IMG/VR virus record: IMGVR_UViG_3300035698_005473 | Coordinates: 1-28,475 of that record | Length of the DNA stretch: 28,475 nucleotides | Origin: a virus | Reading direction: 5' to 3' (one strand) | Part shown: piece by piece, positions 33 through 5,379 of the stretch | How positions within the stretch are numbered: the stretch's first letter is position 1 | Layout of the letters: each line of letters starts with the position of its first letter | Notes under the pieces: generated by a model | What the model was told of the DNA's origin: nothing | The model's input: the letters and a program-made list of their open reading frames with translations, nothing else | Databases searched by the model: none | Translations under genes and position numbers: made by a program

Positions 33-1361
33 TTAATATTGGAGGTTATCGAATTTCCCATAATCCCTGTTGAGATATAATAAGAGTTCGCCAGTTGGCC
101 CATTCCTTTGTTTTTCAAGTAACAGTTCTACAATATTATCCCGATTTGTTTCTTGGCCCAAATTATATTCAGCCTTTTGAGCTTCGCTCCCATGATGTAG
201 GAACATTACTATGTCCGCATCTTCTTCAATACTACCACTCTCTTTTAGTGTGTGTAACCCGGGCCGCTTGTCTGTATCTCCTGCATACCTGCTCAGCTGC
301 GACAATGCCATGATCGGTATGTTTAATTCAATGGCATATTGCTTTAATGCACGGGTAATGCTCACGATTTCAAGACGCCTTGATTCGCTTGAACTGCCTC
401 GCATGAGTTGCAGATAATCAATTATAACAAACCTAACGTTCCGCTCACGGATTATCTGGCGCATCTTTGCTCCGAGCTTGGTAATGCTTATGCCCGGAGT
501 CTCGTATGTATAATAAGAAAATCCATTTAACCTTGAACACCCGTCTGACAGCTGTGTCCATCCTTCCACACCAGGTTTTACCTTTTGGATACTTATCGTG
601 TTATATCGTGACTCTTTACCTATTGCCCTTTTCGCCATTTCAAGTTTTGTCATTTCAAGTGTGAAGATCACCGTTGGTATTTCTACCCGTGCTGCGTTCA
701 TGGCTATGTCTTGCGCCAATAATGATTTTCCTTGTTGTGTTTTTCCAGCAAGTATGATAAAGTTACCACCTACGAATCCACCTGTAAGCCTGTCAAGTGA
801 CGCAAAACCAGACGGAACACCATTTATTTTTCCTTCAAGCTCTGATAATCGCTGTAATTCGGCAAATGCAATAGCCACTGATTCGCTCATTGATTCATAC
901 GTATCAGTTTTGCTTTTTGTCTGGATATTGAAAATACCATCTTGAGCAGACGCGAATATATCTTCCATATCTGCTGTTGTATCAAACGCATTCTGTGATA
1001 CTGCGTGCGCCAAGTGTATTATTTCCCTGCGTTGTGAGAATTCAACCAACTCACCGCAGTTAAATTCTATGTTTGCCGTGCTGGTTATCTCTCCTGAAAT
1101 TCCGGCAATACCTATTTCGTCCCCGGCTTGCTCAAGTTGTTTGTTCTTACGCAACCACTCTATAACCGTTAGTTGGTCAATATTGACGGATGATTCATAC
1201 AGGGCAAGAATAGCTTTGAAGATTATTGCATGTTTGGGATTATAGAAACAGGTCACGTCAATGAGCTGAACAGCTTGATCGATTGCATCCTGTTCCAACA
1301 TCATTGCACCTAATACAGCGCGTTCTAAATTCCAAGACTGTGGAAGATCAAGGTCTATCAT
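33..1361 (-). CDS. dnaB: Replicative DNA helicase, DnaB family
   Basis: A 442-residue hexameric 5'-3' helicase expected to unwind the phage fork and be loaded by the initiator encoded upstream. An N-terminal helical DnaB domain (about 8-105, beginning SWNLERAVLGAMM) is followed by a linker and a RecA-like ATPase domain (about 180-440). Walker A is GKTQQGKS at 206-213. The Walker B strand FVIIDYLQL is at 311-319. A LSQLSR sensor segment lies near 353-358, and the C-terminal EKQRNGPTG (416-424) carries the K-x-R arginine-finger pair K417/R419. Length is close to cellular DnaB. The start overlaps the upstream gene by 4 nt (ATGA) and is preceded by GAGGTGA, so translation is probably coupled. All key motifs are intact. 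Confidence 0.97.
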   Translation of the reverse strand: MIDLDLPQSWNLERAVLGAMMLEQDAIDQAVQLIDVTCFYNPKHAIIFKAILALYESSVNIDQLTVIEWLRKNKQLEQAGDEIGIAGISGEITSTANIEFNCGELVEFSQRREIIHLAHAVSQNAFDTTADMEDIFASAQDGIFNIQTKSKTDTYESMSESVAIAFAELQRLSELEGKINGVPSGFASLDRLTGGFVGGNFIILAGKTQQGKSLLAQDIAMNAARVEIPTVIFTLEMTKLEMAKRAIGKESRYNTISIQKVKPGVEGWTQLSDGCSRLNGFSYYTYETPGISITKLGAKMRQIIRERNVRFVIIDYLQLMRGSSSESRRLEIVSITRALKQYAIELNIPIMALSQLSRYAGDTDKRPGLHTLKESGSIEEDADIVMFLHHGSEAQKAEYNLGQETNRDNIVELLLEKQRNGPTGELLLYLNRDYGKFDNLQY

Positions 1362-1672
1362 TCTTCACCTCTTGCTTTCCGGGCTTCTCGTTCAGCATCG
1401 GTCTTTCTGATAACTTCCGTGTAATGCTCTTTCACGTTTAGAAACCTGTGGCTTGGATATTTCTGATAGTATTCGTCAGTGCCATGCTTCGGCTCCGCGT
1501 TTCTGTTTATATAAACCCTCGCAATAGAATTAACGCTAACCATATTATCGGTAAGTTTTATGAACTGCGCTTCGCCTTTGTCAATAAGTGCGTTCACTTT
1601 ATTGAATTGAGCTTCATCATCAAGCTCAATAAGTTCACTGTCTTTCATTTTGATATAATACCTGATTACCAT
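1358..1672 (-). CDS. Conserved-looking phage hypothetical protein, 104 aa, between initiator and helicase
   Basis: I do not recognise this family. The protein is soluble and mixed alpha/beta. An N-terminal half (about 10-58) has alternating hydrophobics typical of a small beta-rich domain and is followed by a charged helical tail rich in K, R and E (about 80-104). The start has AAAGGAG six nt upstream. Its end overlaps the helicase start by 4 nt, so it belongs to the replication operon. A helicase-loader or single-strand-binding role would fit the position, but no motif shows this; it lacks a Walker A and so is not a DnaC-type loader. Confidence 0.75.
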   Translation of the reverse strand: MVIRYYIKMKDSELIELDDEAQFNKVNALIDKGEAQFIKLTDNMVSVNSIARVYINRNAEPKHGTDEYYQKYPSHRFLNVKEHYTEVIRKTDAEREARKARGEE

Positions 1673-1683
1673 GATATGCTCCT

Positions 1684-2499
1684 TTACTGGTTTGTTACAT
1701 CGCCTACTCTATCTTTATTGGTCTTATTGGTTTTGTACTGTGTTTCGTCTTCCTGTAAATAGTTCTCGAAATGTGTCGTACTAAAAAGAGTTGTTAGATT
1801 CAATAGCTTTTTGTTCTCGATGAAGTGTGGGTCTTTTAGTTTCTTTCTGGCTACGATCTCTAATTCCTCATAAGTCCTGCCTTCTCTGAGTCGTTCCATT
1901 ATAACAGTGAACGCACCACCTATCTCTGAATCACTGCGAGATAAAAGATCATTCGTCATTACAAGCACCCTCTTCGCTTCTGTCTTTAATGCTATTTCTT
2001 TAGATGAGAAATAATCATGTCTCGGAATTGGGGGATTATAGGGGGGTTCTTTAGTTACATTGTTTAATTGTTTTATTGTTCTATTGTTGTCTATAGTTTG
2101 GCTTCTGTTTTGCTTCTGTTTTGCTTCCGTTTTGCTTTTGGTTTCGCTTTTGGTTTCGCCCCTGTAGTTTTCCATCGCTTGGTAGTGGTTGTATTTATTA
2201 ATCTTAATCCGCATTCCTCTTGTGCTTTTGGTTGTGCTTATCATTTTGCTCGATTTTGCATATTTAAGAAATTTTGCAACTTGGTTATATGTGATGTCAC
2301 AACCTATTTCTCGCAAGTCTCTTGTAAAGTTAAAAAACCCTTCGCCTCGTTTGTATTTTCCGTTATCTATGTGGCTTACATTGCCGAGTATATACACCCA
2401 TATAACTTTCCATGATGAAGGTTTTTCTAACCATAGCTCGCCCTCAAAGAATTGTCTTGCTAATTGGAAAGCGCCTTTTTCGATCTTTTTATTAATCAT
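1684..2499 (-). CDS. Phage replication initiator / replisome organiser
   Basis: A 271-residue protein of the phage replication-initiator type, expected to bind the origin and bring in the DnaB-type helicase encoded two genes later. The N-terminal half (IEKGAFQLARQFFEGELW... near 5-110) looks like the winged-helix domain of phage replisome organisers. A Lys/Gln/Thr-rich linker (about 112-150) follows. The C-terminal third resembles the conserved phage C-terminal domain of such proteins, with a KKLLNLTTLFSTTHFENYL segment near 230-250. I chose ATG 2499 because it follows the upstream stop by 1 nt (TAAGATG), suggesting coupling; ATG 2526 would add nine residues but has no better RBS. The linker DNA holds two sets of direct repeats (separate entries), as in lambda gene O. 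Family assignment rests on these signatures, not on a search. Confidence 0.8.
   Translation of the reverse strand: MINKKIEKGAFQLARQFFEGELWLEKPSSWKVIWVYILGNVSHIDNGKYKRGEGFFNFTRDLREIGCDITYNQVAKFLKYAKSSKMISTTKSTRGMRIKINKYNHYQAMENYRGETKSETKSKTEAKQKQNRSQTIDNNRTIKQLNNVTKEPPYNPPIPRHDYFSSKEIALKTEAKRVLVMTNDLLSRSDSEIGGAFTVIMERLREGRTYEELEIVARKKLKDPHFIENKKLLNLTTLFSTTHFENYLQEDETQYKTNKTNKDRVGDVTNQ
2059..2090. repeat. Four 8-bp AT-rich direct repeats (candidate DNA-unwinding element)
   Basis: On the plus strand ATTGTTNN occurs four times head-to-tail without interruption: 2059-2066, 2067-2074, 2075-2082 and 2083-2090. Flanking sequence is also AT-rich. The period of 8 does not match codon phase, so the repetition is at DNA level although the tract lies inside the initiator gene. 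Next to the 11/12-bp repeats at 2103-2159, it fits the AT-rich unwinding part of a replication origin. Function is inferred. Confidence 0.7.
2103..2159. repeat. Five 11/12-bp direct repeats (iteron candidates) inside the initiator gene
   Basis: Plus-strand units are TTCTGTTTTGC at 2103-2113 and 2114-2124, TTCCGTTTTGC at 2125-2135, and TTTTGGTTTCGC at 2136-2147 and 2148-2159. Three units are 11 bp and two are 12 bp, so the repeat crosses codon phase and encodes different peptides in each copy. Spacing is about one helical turn. Position in the linker of the initiator gene with an AT-rich repeat tract beside it matches the lambda-type origin layout. The repeats are seen directly; origin function is inferred. 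Confidence 0.75.
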
Positions 2500-2500
2500 C

Positions 2501-2668
2501 TTATATAATCCCAAAGTGTTCAGCATTTTGTTTAAACTTCAATGTAAGTATATTTTGTAGTTCTTTTGGAGTGACTGATTTAAAGGGAAAGTCATCTCTT
2601 ATTTTAATATATTCAGACGATTTATCTATTATGAAATATCTATCAAAGTCTATCACAGTTTGTCTCAT
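2501..2668 (-). CDS. Small unknown protein, 55 aa, first full gene of the replication operon
   Basis: The protein starts MRQTVIDFDRYFIID and has alternating hydrophobic and charged residues, consistent with a small alpha/beta fold; no family is recognised. ATG 2668 is preferred over an upstream TTG at 2713 because the ATG overlaps the stop of the upstream 32-codon reading frame (ATGA), giving coupled translation. Its own RBS is weak (GGGGCGGC directly upstream). It ends one nt before the initiator start, so the two are probably co-translated. It is the kind of small protein often found beside phage initiators, but no role can be assigned. Confidence 0.6.
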   Translation of the reverse strand: MRQTVIDFDRYFIIDKSSEYIKIRDDFPFKSVTPKELQNILTLKFKQNAEHFGII

Positions 2669-3528: not shown

Positions 3529-3590
3529 AATGGCGACTAATCCTGTGTCAATAGAAGTGGTTCACACCATTCTCAGGACTTGCCGCCATT
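3529..3590 (-). promoter_or_regulatory. Structured RNA hairpin with GNRA loop in the HNH leader
   Basis: Arms 3574-3590 and 3529-3545 pair over 17 positions as minus-strand RNA, with one A-A mismatch and two G-U wobbles. An inner 8-bp hairpin with one bulged C (3553-3573) is capped by the tetraloop GUGA, a GNRA loop. A 7-nt strand AUUGACA is left unpaired on one side. UUUUU follows, and the HNH start codon is 22 nt downstream. The wobble pattern shows the minus transcript is the folded one. It could be a terminator for the upstream operon, an attenuator, or a regulatory RNA. Confidence 0.7.
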
Positions 3591-4520: not shown

Positions 4521-4712
4521 TTATTGTTTATTCTCCGCTTTATCTAATACATTCTCGTTCCATCTGTAACCGCAAGCAGCACATTCACGCACCATAAATT
4601 CAAATCTTTCAAGTGTCTGTGGGTCAATGTCCCATACATAGTCGCAAGAAATACCAGTATGGCCGCATTTACAGCATTTTGGATTGCTTGTGAAATCAGG
4701 TAATGTTCTCAT
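4521..4712 (-). CDS. Zinc-ribbon protein, 63 aa
   Basis: Two metal knuckles, CCKCGHTG (Cys at 13, 14 and 16) and CAACGYRW (Cys 44 and 47), frame a strand-turn-strand region. This is the usual treble/zinc-ribbon arrangement with about 27 residues between pairs. Such proteins bind zinc and often contact nucleic acid or a polymerase. The SD GGGAGGTGA is one of the strongest in the window, suggesting high expression. The start lies inside the end of the upstream hexapeptide gene (17-nt overlap). Downstream, 49 nt without a gene separate it from the 84-aa gene. The exact target is unknown. Confidence 0.75.
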   Translation of the reverse strand: MRTLPDFTSNPKCCKCGHTGISCDYVWDIDPQTLERFEFMVRECAACGYRWNENVLDKAENKQ

Positions 4713-5379
4713 TATTATTCACCTCCCACATAACTTCATCTTTCAAACCCAGATACATTTCGAGTTGCGCCCGAATAATGGGATGCCAGCCATTCCATTT
4801 ACAGATTATTTCCGCCTGCTCTTTTGTAACGTTGGCTTTAATGTCATCCCAACAAGCATTCCTAGCCAGAATGATGTTTTTCCACTGTTTTAGCGGAGGC
4901 ATTTCAGCGTAGTAACTTCGCCAAAATGGCAATGTTTTTGTTATAAGTTTTTTTGCACTTAGATTAAATATGAGAGATAGTATATACCCGCCTGCCTTGA
5001 TATACCTGCCTGCCTCGATAGACCCGCCTGCCTTGATATACCTGCCTGCCGTGATATACTCACCTGCCGTGATAGACCAGCCTGCCGTGATAGACCCACC
5101 TGCCTTGATATACTCACCTGCCGTGATATACTCACCTGCCGTGATAGACCAGTCTGCCTCGATATACCTGCCTGCCGTGATATACTCACCTGCCTTGATA
5201 TACCCGCCTGCCTCGATATACCCACCTGCCTTGATATACCCGCCTGCCTTGATATACCCGCCTGCCTCGATAGAGGCAGGTGTTACAATATCGCACTCAA
5301 ACCGTACGCTATCAAATACAGCAACACCGTCTTTTACAAACGAGTCAAATTCTTCTTGTGTTTTAATTGTGGTTAGCAT
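4696..5379 (-). CDS. Hexapeptide-repeat (beta-solenoid) protein, 227 aa
   Basis: Three parts are visible. An N-terminal cap (1-35) begins MLTTIKTQEEFDSFVKDG. Residues 36-131 form 16 consecutive six-residue units of the form [Y/S]-I-[K/E/T]-A-G-[G/E/R/W]. A C-terminal globular domain (about 140-227) has a WKNIILARNACWDDI and WNGWHPIIRAQLEMYLGL signature. The hexad period and invariant Ile/Ala/Gly suggest a left-handed beta-helix or bactofilin-like solenoid of about five turns. Related I-x-A-G repeat proteins occur in many phages with no known role. The SD GAGGGG precedes the start. The gene lies between RecT and the zinc-ribbon gene in the early operon. Because the repeat DNA has little synonymous change, the tract probably expanded recently. 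It carries no signal peptide, so it is probably cytoplasmic. Confidence 0.85.
   Translation of the reverse strand: MLTTIKTQEEFDSFVKDGVAVFDSVRFECDIVTPASIEAGGYIKAGGYIKAGGYIEAGGYIKAGEYITAGRYIEADWSITAGEYITAGEYIKAGGSITAGWSITAGEYITAGRYIKAGGSIEAGRYIKAGGYILSLIFNLSAKKLITKTLPFWRSYYAEMPPLKQWKNIILARNACWDDIKANVTKEQAEIICKWNGWHPIIRAQLEMYLGLKDEVMWEVNNNENIT
4981..5274 (-). repeat. 18-bp tandem repeat tract encoding 16 hexapeptides
   Basis: Sixteen 18-bp units with plus-strand form close to TACCCGCCTGCCTTGATA run without spacers. Variation is concentrated at a few positions (for example CTTGATA, CTCGATA or CGTGATA), so residues swap between K, E and T or between G, E, R and W while the rest is fixed. The period keeps all three minus frames and a plus frame open, so the overlapping long frames here are artefacts. 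Confidence 0.95.

Follow-up and report, generated by a model that had tools for sequence, protein, structure and literature searches.

Why does the replication initiator gene of a phage carry two arrays of direct repeats in the middle of its coding sequence, side by side between the two domains of the protein? The question is raised by IMG/VR virus record IMGVR_UViG_3300035698_005473, whose whole stretch of 28,475 bases we analysed and here call the window. Altogether, our results support a model whereby the repeats are very probably the start site of phage replication, placed inside the gene of the protein that recognizes them. Comparison with related genes shows that the array is kept as DNA and that, in sequence alignments and a structural model, it follows the residues with which the initiator is predicted to read DNA. 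The gene and its repeats, given in base pairs (bp), are the following.

1684-2526, minus strand: replication initiator gene of the DnaD-like or replisome-organizer type, 280 residues, assigned from PHROG and structure matches
2093-2160, minus strand: iteron array in the initiator linker, with five good 11/12-bp units and a degenerate sixth
2160-2149, minus strand: iteron unit 1, GGCGAAACCAAA
2148-2137, minus strand: iteron unit 2, AGCGAAACCAAA
2136-2126, minus strand: iteron unit 3, AGCAAAACGGA
2125-2115 and 2114-2104, minus strand: iteron units 4 and 5, both AGCAAAACAGA
2103-2093, minus strand: iteron unit 6, degenerate, AGCCAAACTAT
2090-2096, minus strand: CTATA motif where the last iteron meets the AT-rich tract
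2057-2088, minus strand: AT-rich array of four 8-bp AACAATNN units starting at 2088, 2080, 2072 and 2064, a putative unwinding element

The protein has weak PHROG matches to phrog_428, replication initiation protein (E 2.4e-6), and phrog_2514, DnaD-like helicase loader (E 1.7e-5), and its predicted structure matches viral replisome organizers (best E 2.6e-7). The initial annotation, made from the DNA letters, had described five 11/12-bp iterons next to four 8-bp AT-rich repeats in the linker of this protein; on reading the sequence, both arrays are present there with these counts, to which the degenerate sixth iteron is added. They lie between the modelled domains at residues 22-120 and 175-278, and the iterons follow each other at 12, 12, 11, 11 and 11 bp. 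The annotation also held that 11- and 8-bp steps break codon phase, which is so; the 12-bp steps keep it. Its claim that the peptide does not explain the repeats is borne out by synonymous-codon nulls: none of 2000 synonymous recodings of the initiator gene equalled the lag-8 or the lag-11 run, and 0.1% of them reached the lag-12 run; when the gene's own synonymous codons were shuffled, p was 0.002 for lag 8, 0.001 for lag 11 and 0.009 for lag 12. Among window lags that are not a multiple of 3, lag 11 is unmatched; an in-phase 18-bp array at 4982-5272 scores higher. On the coding strand, T is found at none of 64 nucleotides of the iterons compared to 21% in the initiator gene, as would be expected if a repeat that shifts through all three frames must avoid stop codons. 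Beside the iterons, the sequence at 2052-2095 has an AT content of 80%, and in a ranking of 40-bp windows by stability the 40 bp at 2055-2094 belong to the lowest 0.5%.

Support for the idea that these repeats are maintained as DNA comes from homologous genes. Searches with the neighbouring terminase, RecT and DnaB proteins as queries returned distant phages only, some of them with other linker repeats. Different units in linker arrays of 11, 12 or 22 bp were seen in further initiator-like phage genes (L058:12583-13653, L056:4858-5754 and L005:3868-4989). A scan of viral contigs with the iteron pattern matched at least 119 stretches; the reversed pattern, used as a control, matched 16, made up of 12 copies of one unrelated repeat and four stretches in initiator-like linkers. 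Among the iteron-scan matches listed, three (L198, L202 and L203) are true homologues of the window initiator, and an alignment of their N-terminal domains, used as query, identified 29 viral loci and three genome loci, the latter in metagenome-assembled bacteria including Parcubacteria and Omnitrophota. The resulting sample comprises 28 non-redundant homologues, collected independently of the iteron except for the three seeds, and makes 29 genes with the window.

The initial annotation had proposed, as a check in its favour, that related phages conserve the repeats at the DNA level while the peptide varies, and in all 28 homologues a repeat array indeed directly follows the N-terminal domain, with differing encoded peptides. 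Lag 11 bp scores best in 24 of the 29 genes, lag 12 bp in four and lag 9 bp in one; the lag-11 signal is higher than in synonymous shuffles of the same gene for 26 of the 29 (p<0.05) and exceeds the pooled-codon synonymous null in all of them. In most homologues, AT-rich repeats, usually 9-bp AAGAATGAT-type units, lie on the same side of the iterons, and by reading, most have CTATA or CGATA at the same junction followed by the AT-rich tract, with a stricter pattern fitting 17 of 28. T makes up 7% of the array region compared to 25% of the rest of the gene. The unit itself varies by phage, being AGCAAAACNGA in the window and AGCACAAYNRA, AGCGACACAGA, AGCACCAGAGA, AGCGAAACARA or others elsewhere, and most copies in one phage share the change of their unit despite their different reading frames. 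At the level of sequence comparison, such a concerted change across frames is the signature of selection acting on DNA.

What the related phages add to the arrays is that the repeats and the predicted DNA-reading residues appear to change together. These residues are placed as follows.

2167-2463, minus strand: N-terminal winged-helix domain, residues 22-120, from the AlphaFold2 model
2251-2289, minus strand: predicted recognition helix, residues 80-92, with iteron-covarying residues 81, 84, 85, 88 and 91
2200-2241, minus strand: predicted wing, residues 96-109, with strands at 96-100 and 105-109 and iteron-covarying residues 97, 100, 101 and 105

AlphaFold2, supplied with the 29-sequence alignment, predicts a confident winged helix before the array (predicted local distance difference test, pLDDT, mostly 91-97 over residues 31-110), a disordered linker and a helical C-terminal domain. 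In a partial Mantel test that controls for whole-domain protein distance, the iteron-covarying residues concentrate at residues 80-105, i.e. in the predicted recognition helix and wing, with partial correlations with the unit of 0.72 for residue 100 (the strongest), 0.66 for residue 84 and 0.49 for residue 85. Three pairings are each concordant in 26 of 27 cases: G at base 4 with Asp84 (exception L212), C at base 8 with Lys100 (exception L193), and G at base 2 with His or Lys at residue 85 (exception L195). Each of these base and residue traits switches 4-6 times on a tree built without residues 78-106, and a well-supported sister pair differs in both parts, L218 having AACGAAACATA and DSF at residues 84-86 and L202 having AGCGAAACAAA and DHC. 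Unit phases were set by hand; the unit of L217 was re-phased after its protein had been seen, and this locus was included in the first covariation run and excluded from the robustness run and the tree test.

Several observations, together with the hand-set phases, weigh against the origin model. Single-protein searches of IMG/VR, cultured phages and genomes gave no close relative of the initiator, so that function is transferred by distant homology, and we infer binding and replication function for this phage from comparison of sequences. Well-supported branches provide just 2-4 independent contrasts, most of which agree and none of which opposes, and a sign test on so few cannot reach 0.05. 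Without the CAC(C/T)AG class the covariation weakens, leaving residue 84 near the top (p 0.006), not alone. The AT-rich tract at 2055-2094 is surpassed in weakness by several other places in the window, and a clear 11-bp array is lacking in Shewanella 3/49, StB20-like and Mammaliicoccus phi31. Finally, GC skew, which the initial annotation had named as a check, leaves the site unmarked; its cumulative minimum near 9 kilobases (kb) coincides with a flip in gene orientation and therefore cannot locate the origin, making this check neutral. Genes to the left of about 9 kb lie on the minus strand, those for terminase and structural proteins beyond it are on the plus strand, and the GC skew switches there too.

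Covariation might also arise by module swap, in which the N-terminal domain and the iterons recombine jointly and change together by joint transfer and not by recognition. We consider this unlikely. It would account for N-terminal domains that align well while C-terminal domains diverge and for iteron classes scattered across the N-domain tree, and it has a precedent in pPR9 rep, a natural chimera in which a joint exchange took in both the N-domain and the origin region (PMC5703833). However, linkage predicts the strongest covariation in the residues nearest to the array, 106-120, whereas the actual peaks are at residues 84 and 100, which argues against mere linkage; moreover, joint exchange makes sense only if both parts must match.

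Decidedly improbable, in our view, is that the array, although bound by the initiator, serves autoregulation or incompatibility while the main origin lies elsewhere in the genome. The comparative data favour binding, not initiation; in SPP1, a second origin, oriR, lies outside gene 38 (PMC6316719); the virus record may be incomplete; and a lone exact iteron-like unit, AGCAAAACTGA, which may be there by chance, lies at 904-914 (minus strand) inside the helicase gene. Nevertheless, no second cluster of iteron units is present anywhere in the window, and the adjoining AT-rich tract and neighbouring helicase gene fit demonstrated origins.

We attach very little probability to the idea that the repeats are slippage-prone, low-complexity DNA coding for a disordered hydrophilic tether of which only the general character is selected. 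The linker is indeed predicted to be disordered and is rich in K, T, E, Q and N, and tandem repeats of many periods are found in the linkers of other phage initiators. Yet the arrays exceed the synonymous nulls in the window and in the homologues, the period is nearly constant at 11 bp although the units differ, units in different codon phases change in concert, and the unit covaries with the predicted recognition helix and wing. That a host factor such as DnaA binds the array in place of the phage initiator is scarcely credible: an AAGCRAAAC-like core does recur in unrelated phage gene families, but the DnaA-box pattern TTWTNCACA is unmatched across the window, and units differ among close relatives while tracking the residues of the phage protein.

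We are therefore left with the origin model and regard it as highly probable that 2057-2160 is an origin in the linker of its own initiator, with initiator-bound iterons, a melting AT-rich tract and helicase recruitment. An intragenic origin with initiator-bound iterons beside an unwinding tract has been demonstrated for SPP1 oriL and lambda ori and is annotated as putative in Sf6; by analogy with these systems, we infer that the initiator binds directly, that the AT-rich tract melts, that the helicase is recruited and that replication starts here. In our model, the N-terminal winged helix would bind the 11/12-bp iterons at roughly one per turn of the double helix and thereby line up several initiator copies on a single DNA face. 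The AT-rich 8-bp repeats would be the duplex that melts, and the C-terminal helical domain may then help to recruit the DnaB-type helicase, whose gene lies two genes downstream. The array-encoded, disordered peptide would serve as a tether, with the function carried by the DNA, and this would confine the iterons to sequences that can be read in each of the three frames, i.e. without T and without stop codons.

The genes and domain that this model draws on besides the arrays are the following.

33-1361, minus strand: DnaB-type replicative helicase gene (Pfam DnaB_C E 1.9e-66; TIGR00665 E 4.2e-109), two genes on from the initiator gene
1358-1672, minus strand: small open reading frame (ORF) of 104 residues between the initiator and helicase genes, with sub-threshold Pfam and PHROG matches alone
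1693-2004, minus strand: C-terminal helical domain of the initiator, residues 175-278, a possible helicase-contact domain, from the AlphaFold model and a weak PF09524 match

The initiator thus has a helicase gene close downstream. Family models give faint signals on the protein itself: PF09524 (residues 207-258) scores 22.1 bits, under its cut-off of 27, and TIGR02220 scores 19.9, under its cut-off of 66.65. A fold search of the PDB with the initiator model returned nothing at E<=0.001; its weak matches include 4pt7, 5kbj and 4pql (E 0.06-0.34), which we take to be N-domain structures of RepA. Membership in RepA_N was rejected, as the Pfam domain PF06970 has no match on the initiator at E 0.01. 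Elsewhere in the window, an ORF adjoining RecT (4696-5379, minus strand) contains sixteen 18-bp repeats at 4982-5272 with a hexapeptide-like pattern (IKAGGYIKAGEY...), and L058 has a comparable ORF with 27-bp repeats near its RecT gene. Two long, unusually stable hairpins are predicted in minus-strand RNA, one upstream of the initiator gene at 2688-2752 (z about -5.9) and one at 3532-3590 (z about -5.8); Rfam matched neither of them and gave nothing for the origin.

The iteron core extends beyond homologues of the window initiator. Of 58 array-bearing proteins (57 among the iteron matches listed and that of the window), 38 match DUF6291 and six match DUF1376, and several of their PHROG matches are termed primosomal or replication initiation. 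Linkers of DUF6291 and DUF1376 genes (L060-L139 and L224-L303) contain the AAGCRAAAC core at 11-bp spacing followed by AT-rich repeats. In a scan with the DUF6291 N-terminal domain, the lag-11 signal exceeds pooled codons (p<0.05) in 60 of 66 non-redundant genes; this sample, for which iteron-bearing members served as seeds and which was limited to the best 80 of 538, does not amount to an unbiased survey. Maxima at lag 12 in the DUF6291 genes were rejected as iterons, as sequence reading suggests that many stem from the AT-rich tract. The DUF6291 N-domain has no homology to that of the window (hhalign probability 0.1), and its model is all-helical and not a winged helix. The need for stop-free, A-rich units may partly explain why unrelated N-domains share an iteron core, and DUF6291 and DUF1376 may be families of origin-bearing replication genes. 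We are a little more sceptical than convinced of a broader proposal, in which intragenic iterons of about 11 bp form a general, exchangeable addressing module that winged helices read by a repeatedly switched code (residue 84 to base 4, residue 85 to base 2, residue 100 to base 8) and of which DUF6291 and DUF1376 proteins have adopted the core. In the literature searched, neither 11-bp intragenic iterons nor DUF6291 or DUF1376 proteins as initiators are described, and this absence is weak evidence.

For most uncultured phages, the origin has not been mapped. An 11-bp array that is nearly constant in period, can be found from sequence and has a specificity apparently readable from a few residues would allow prediction of origins and initiator specificities across many metagenomic phages, and the genes provide a natural series for studying joint change of a DNA-binding protein and its site within one gene. 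Selection for switching iterons has a known cause in satellites of Vibrio cholerae, where a phage nuclease that is directed at the origin and requires iterons is thought to select for change of the iterons and replication module (PMC8263062). If DUF6291 and DUF1376 proteins are truly initiators, many unnamed genes gain a function.

A close and demonstrated counterpart is SPP1, in which gp38 binds direct repeats of oriL inside gene 38, beside an AT-rich unwinding element, and in which, as in the window, a phage DnaB-type helicase gene follows the initiator gene (PMC6316719). We compared SPP1 itself through this publication and read arrays in the SPP1-like phages 049ML001 and 000TH010, which have 11-bp lag arrays and a AACAATGAT tract in the linker and whose unit (about AACGACAGAGA / AAAGACACGAA) differs from that of the window; the separate loader gp39 and the second origin oriR of SPP1 were not found in the window. 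Similarly, Sf6 has 11-bp units, TTGTCCAACGN, after the N-terminal domain inside its O-like gene 43, directly next to a DnaB-like helicase gene, and its record annotates the array stretch as a putative origin; its N-domain is linked to the SPP1-like one by tblastn (E 2e-6), whereas its unit differs from that of the window and its array is split into two clusters with a gap. In lambda, the origin lies in the middle of gene O, whose product binds the iterons before DnaB is recruited; its four 19-bp iterons and the P protein, which brings host DnaB (PMC3985674), contrast with the 11/12-bp units and the phage's own DnaB-type helicase in the window, and a strict lambda-type origin was rejected on unit length and number, in line with the initial annotation, which had set the array apart from lambda. 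Among RepA_N plasmids (pSK41 Rep, which has experimental support, and the pPR9 chimera), a winged-helix N-domain and intragenic boxes resemble the layout in the window: the N-terminal winged helix of Rep, of about 120 residues, binds Rep boxes central in the rep gene, the C-terminal domain is DnaD-like, and the origin-encoded linker is dispensable as protein (PMC5703833). A point of difference is that the plasmid Rep binds DnaG. The layout is common to the cultured phages Staphylococcus phi575, PVL and StB27, Vibrio F89 and Sulfitobacter NYA-2014a; Anoxybacillus A403 and Vibrio 1.206.O have lags of 22 and 23 bp, and the origin of Staphylococcus aureus phage 80alpha has been proposed to lie in its ORF20 gene (PMC5499656). 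The initial annotation had suggested a possible new initiator/origin pair; its layout is that of SPP1 oriL, lambda ori, the annotated Sf6 origin and pSK41-type rep genes, and this initiator with its array is therefore a new member of a known arrangement.
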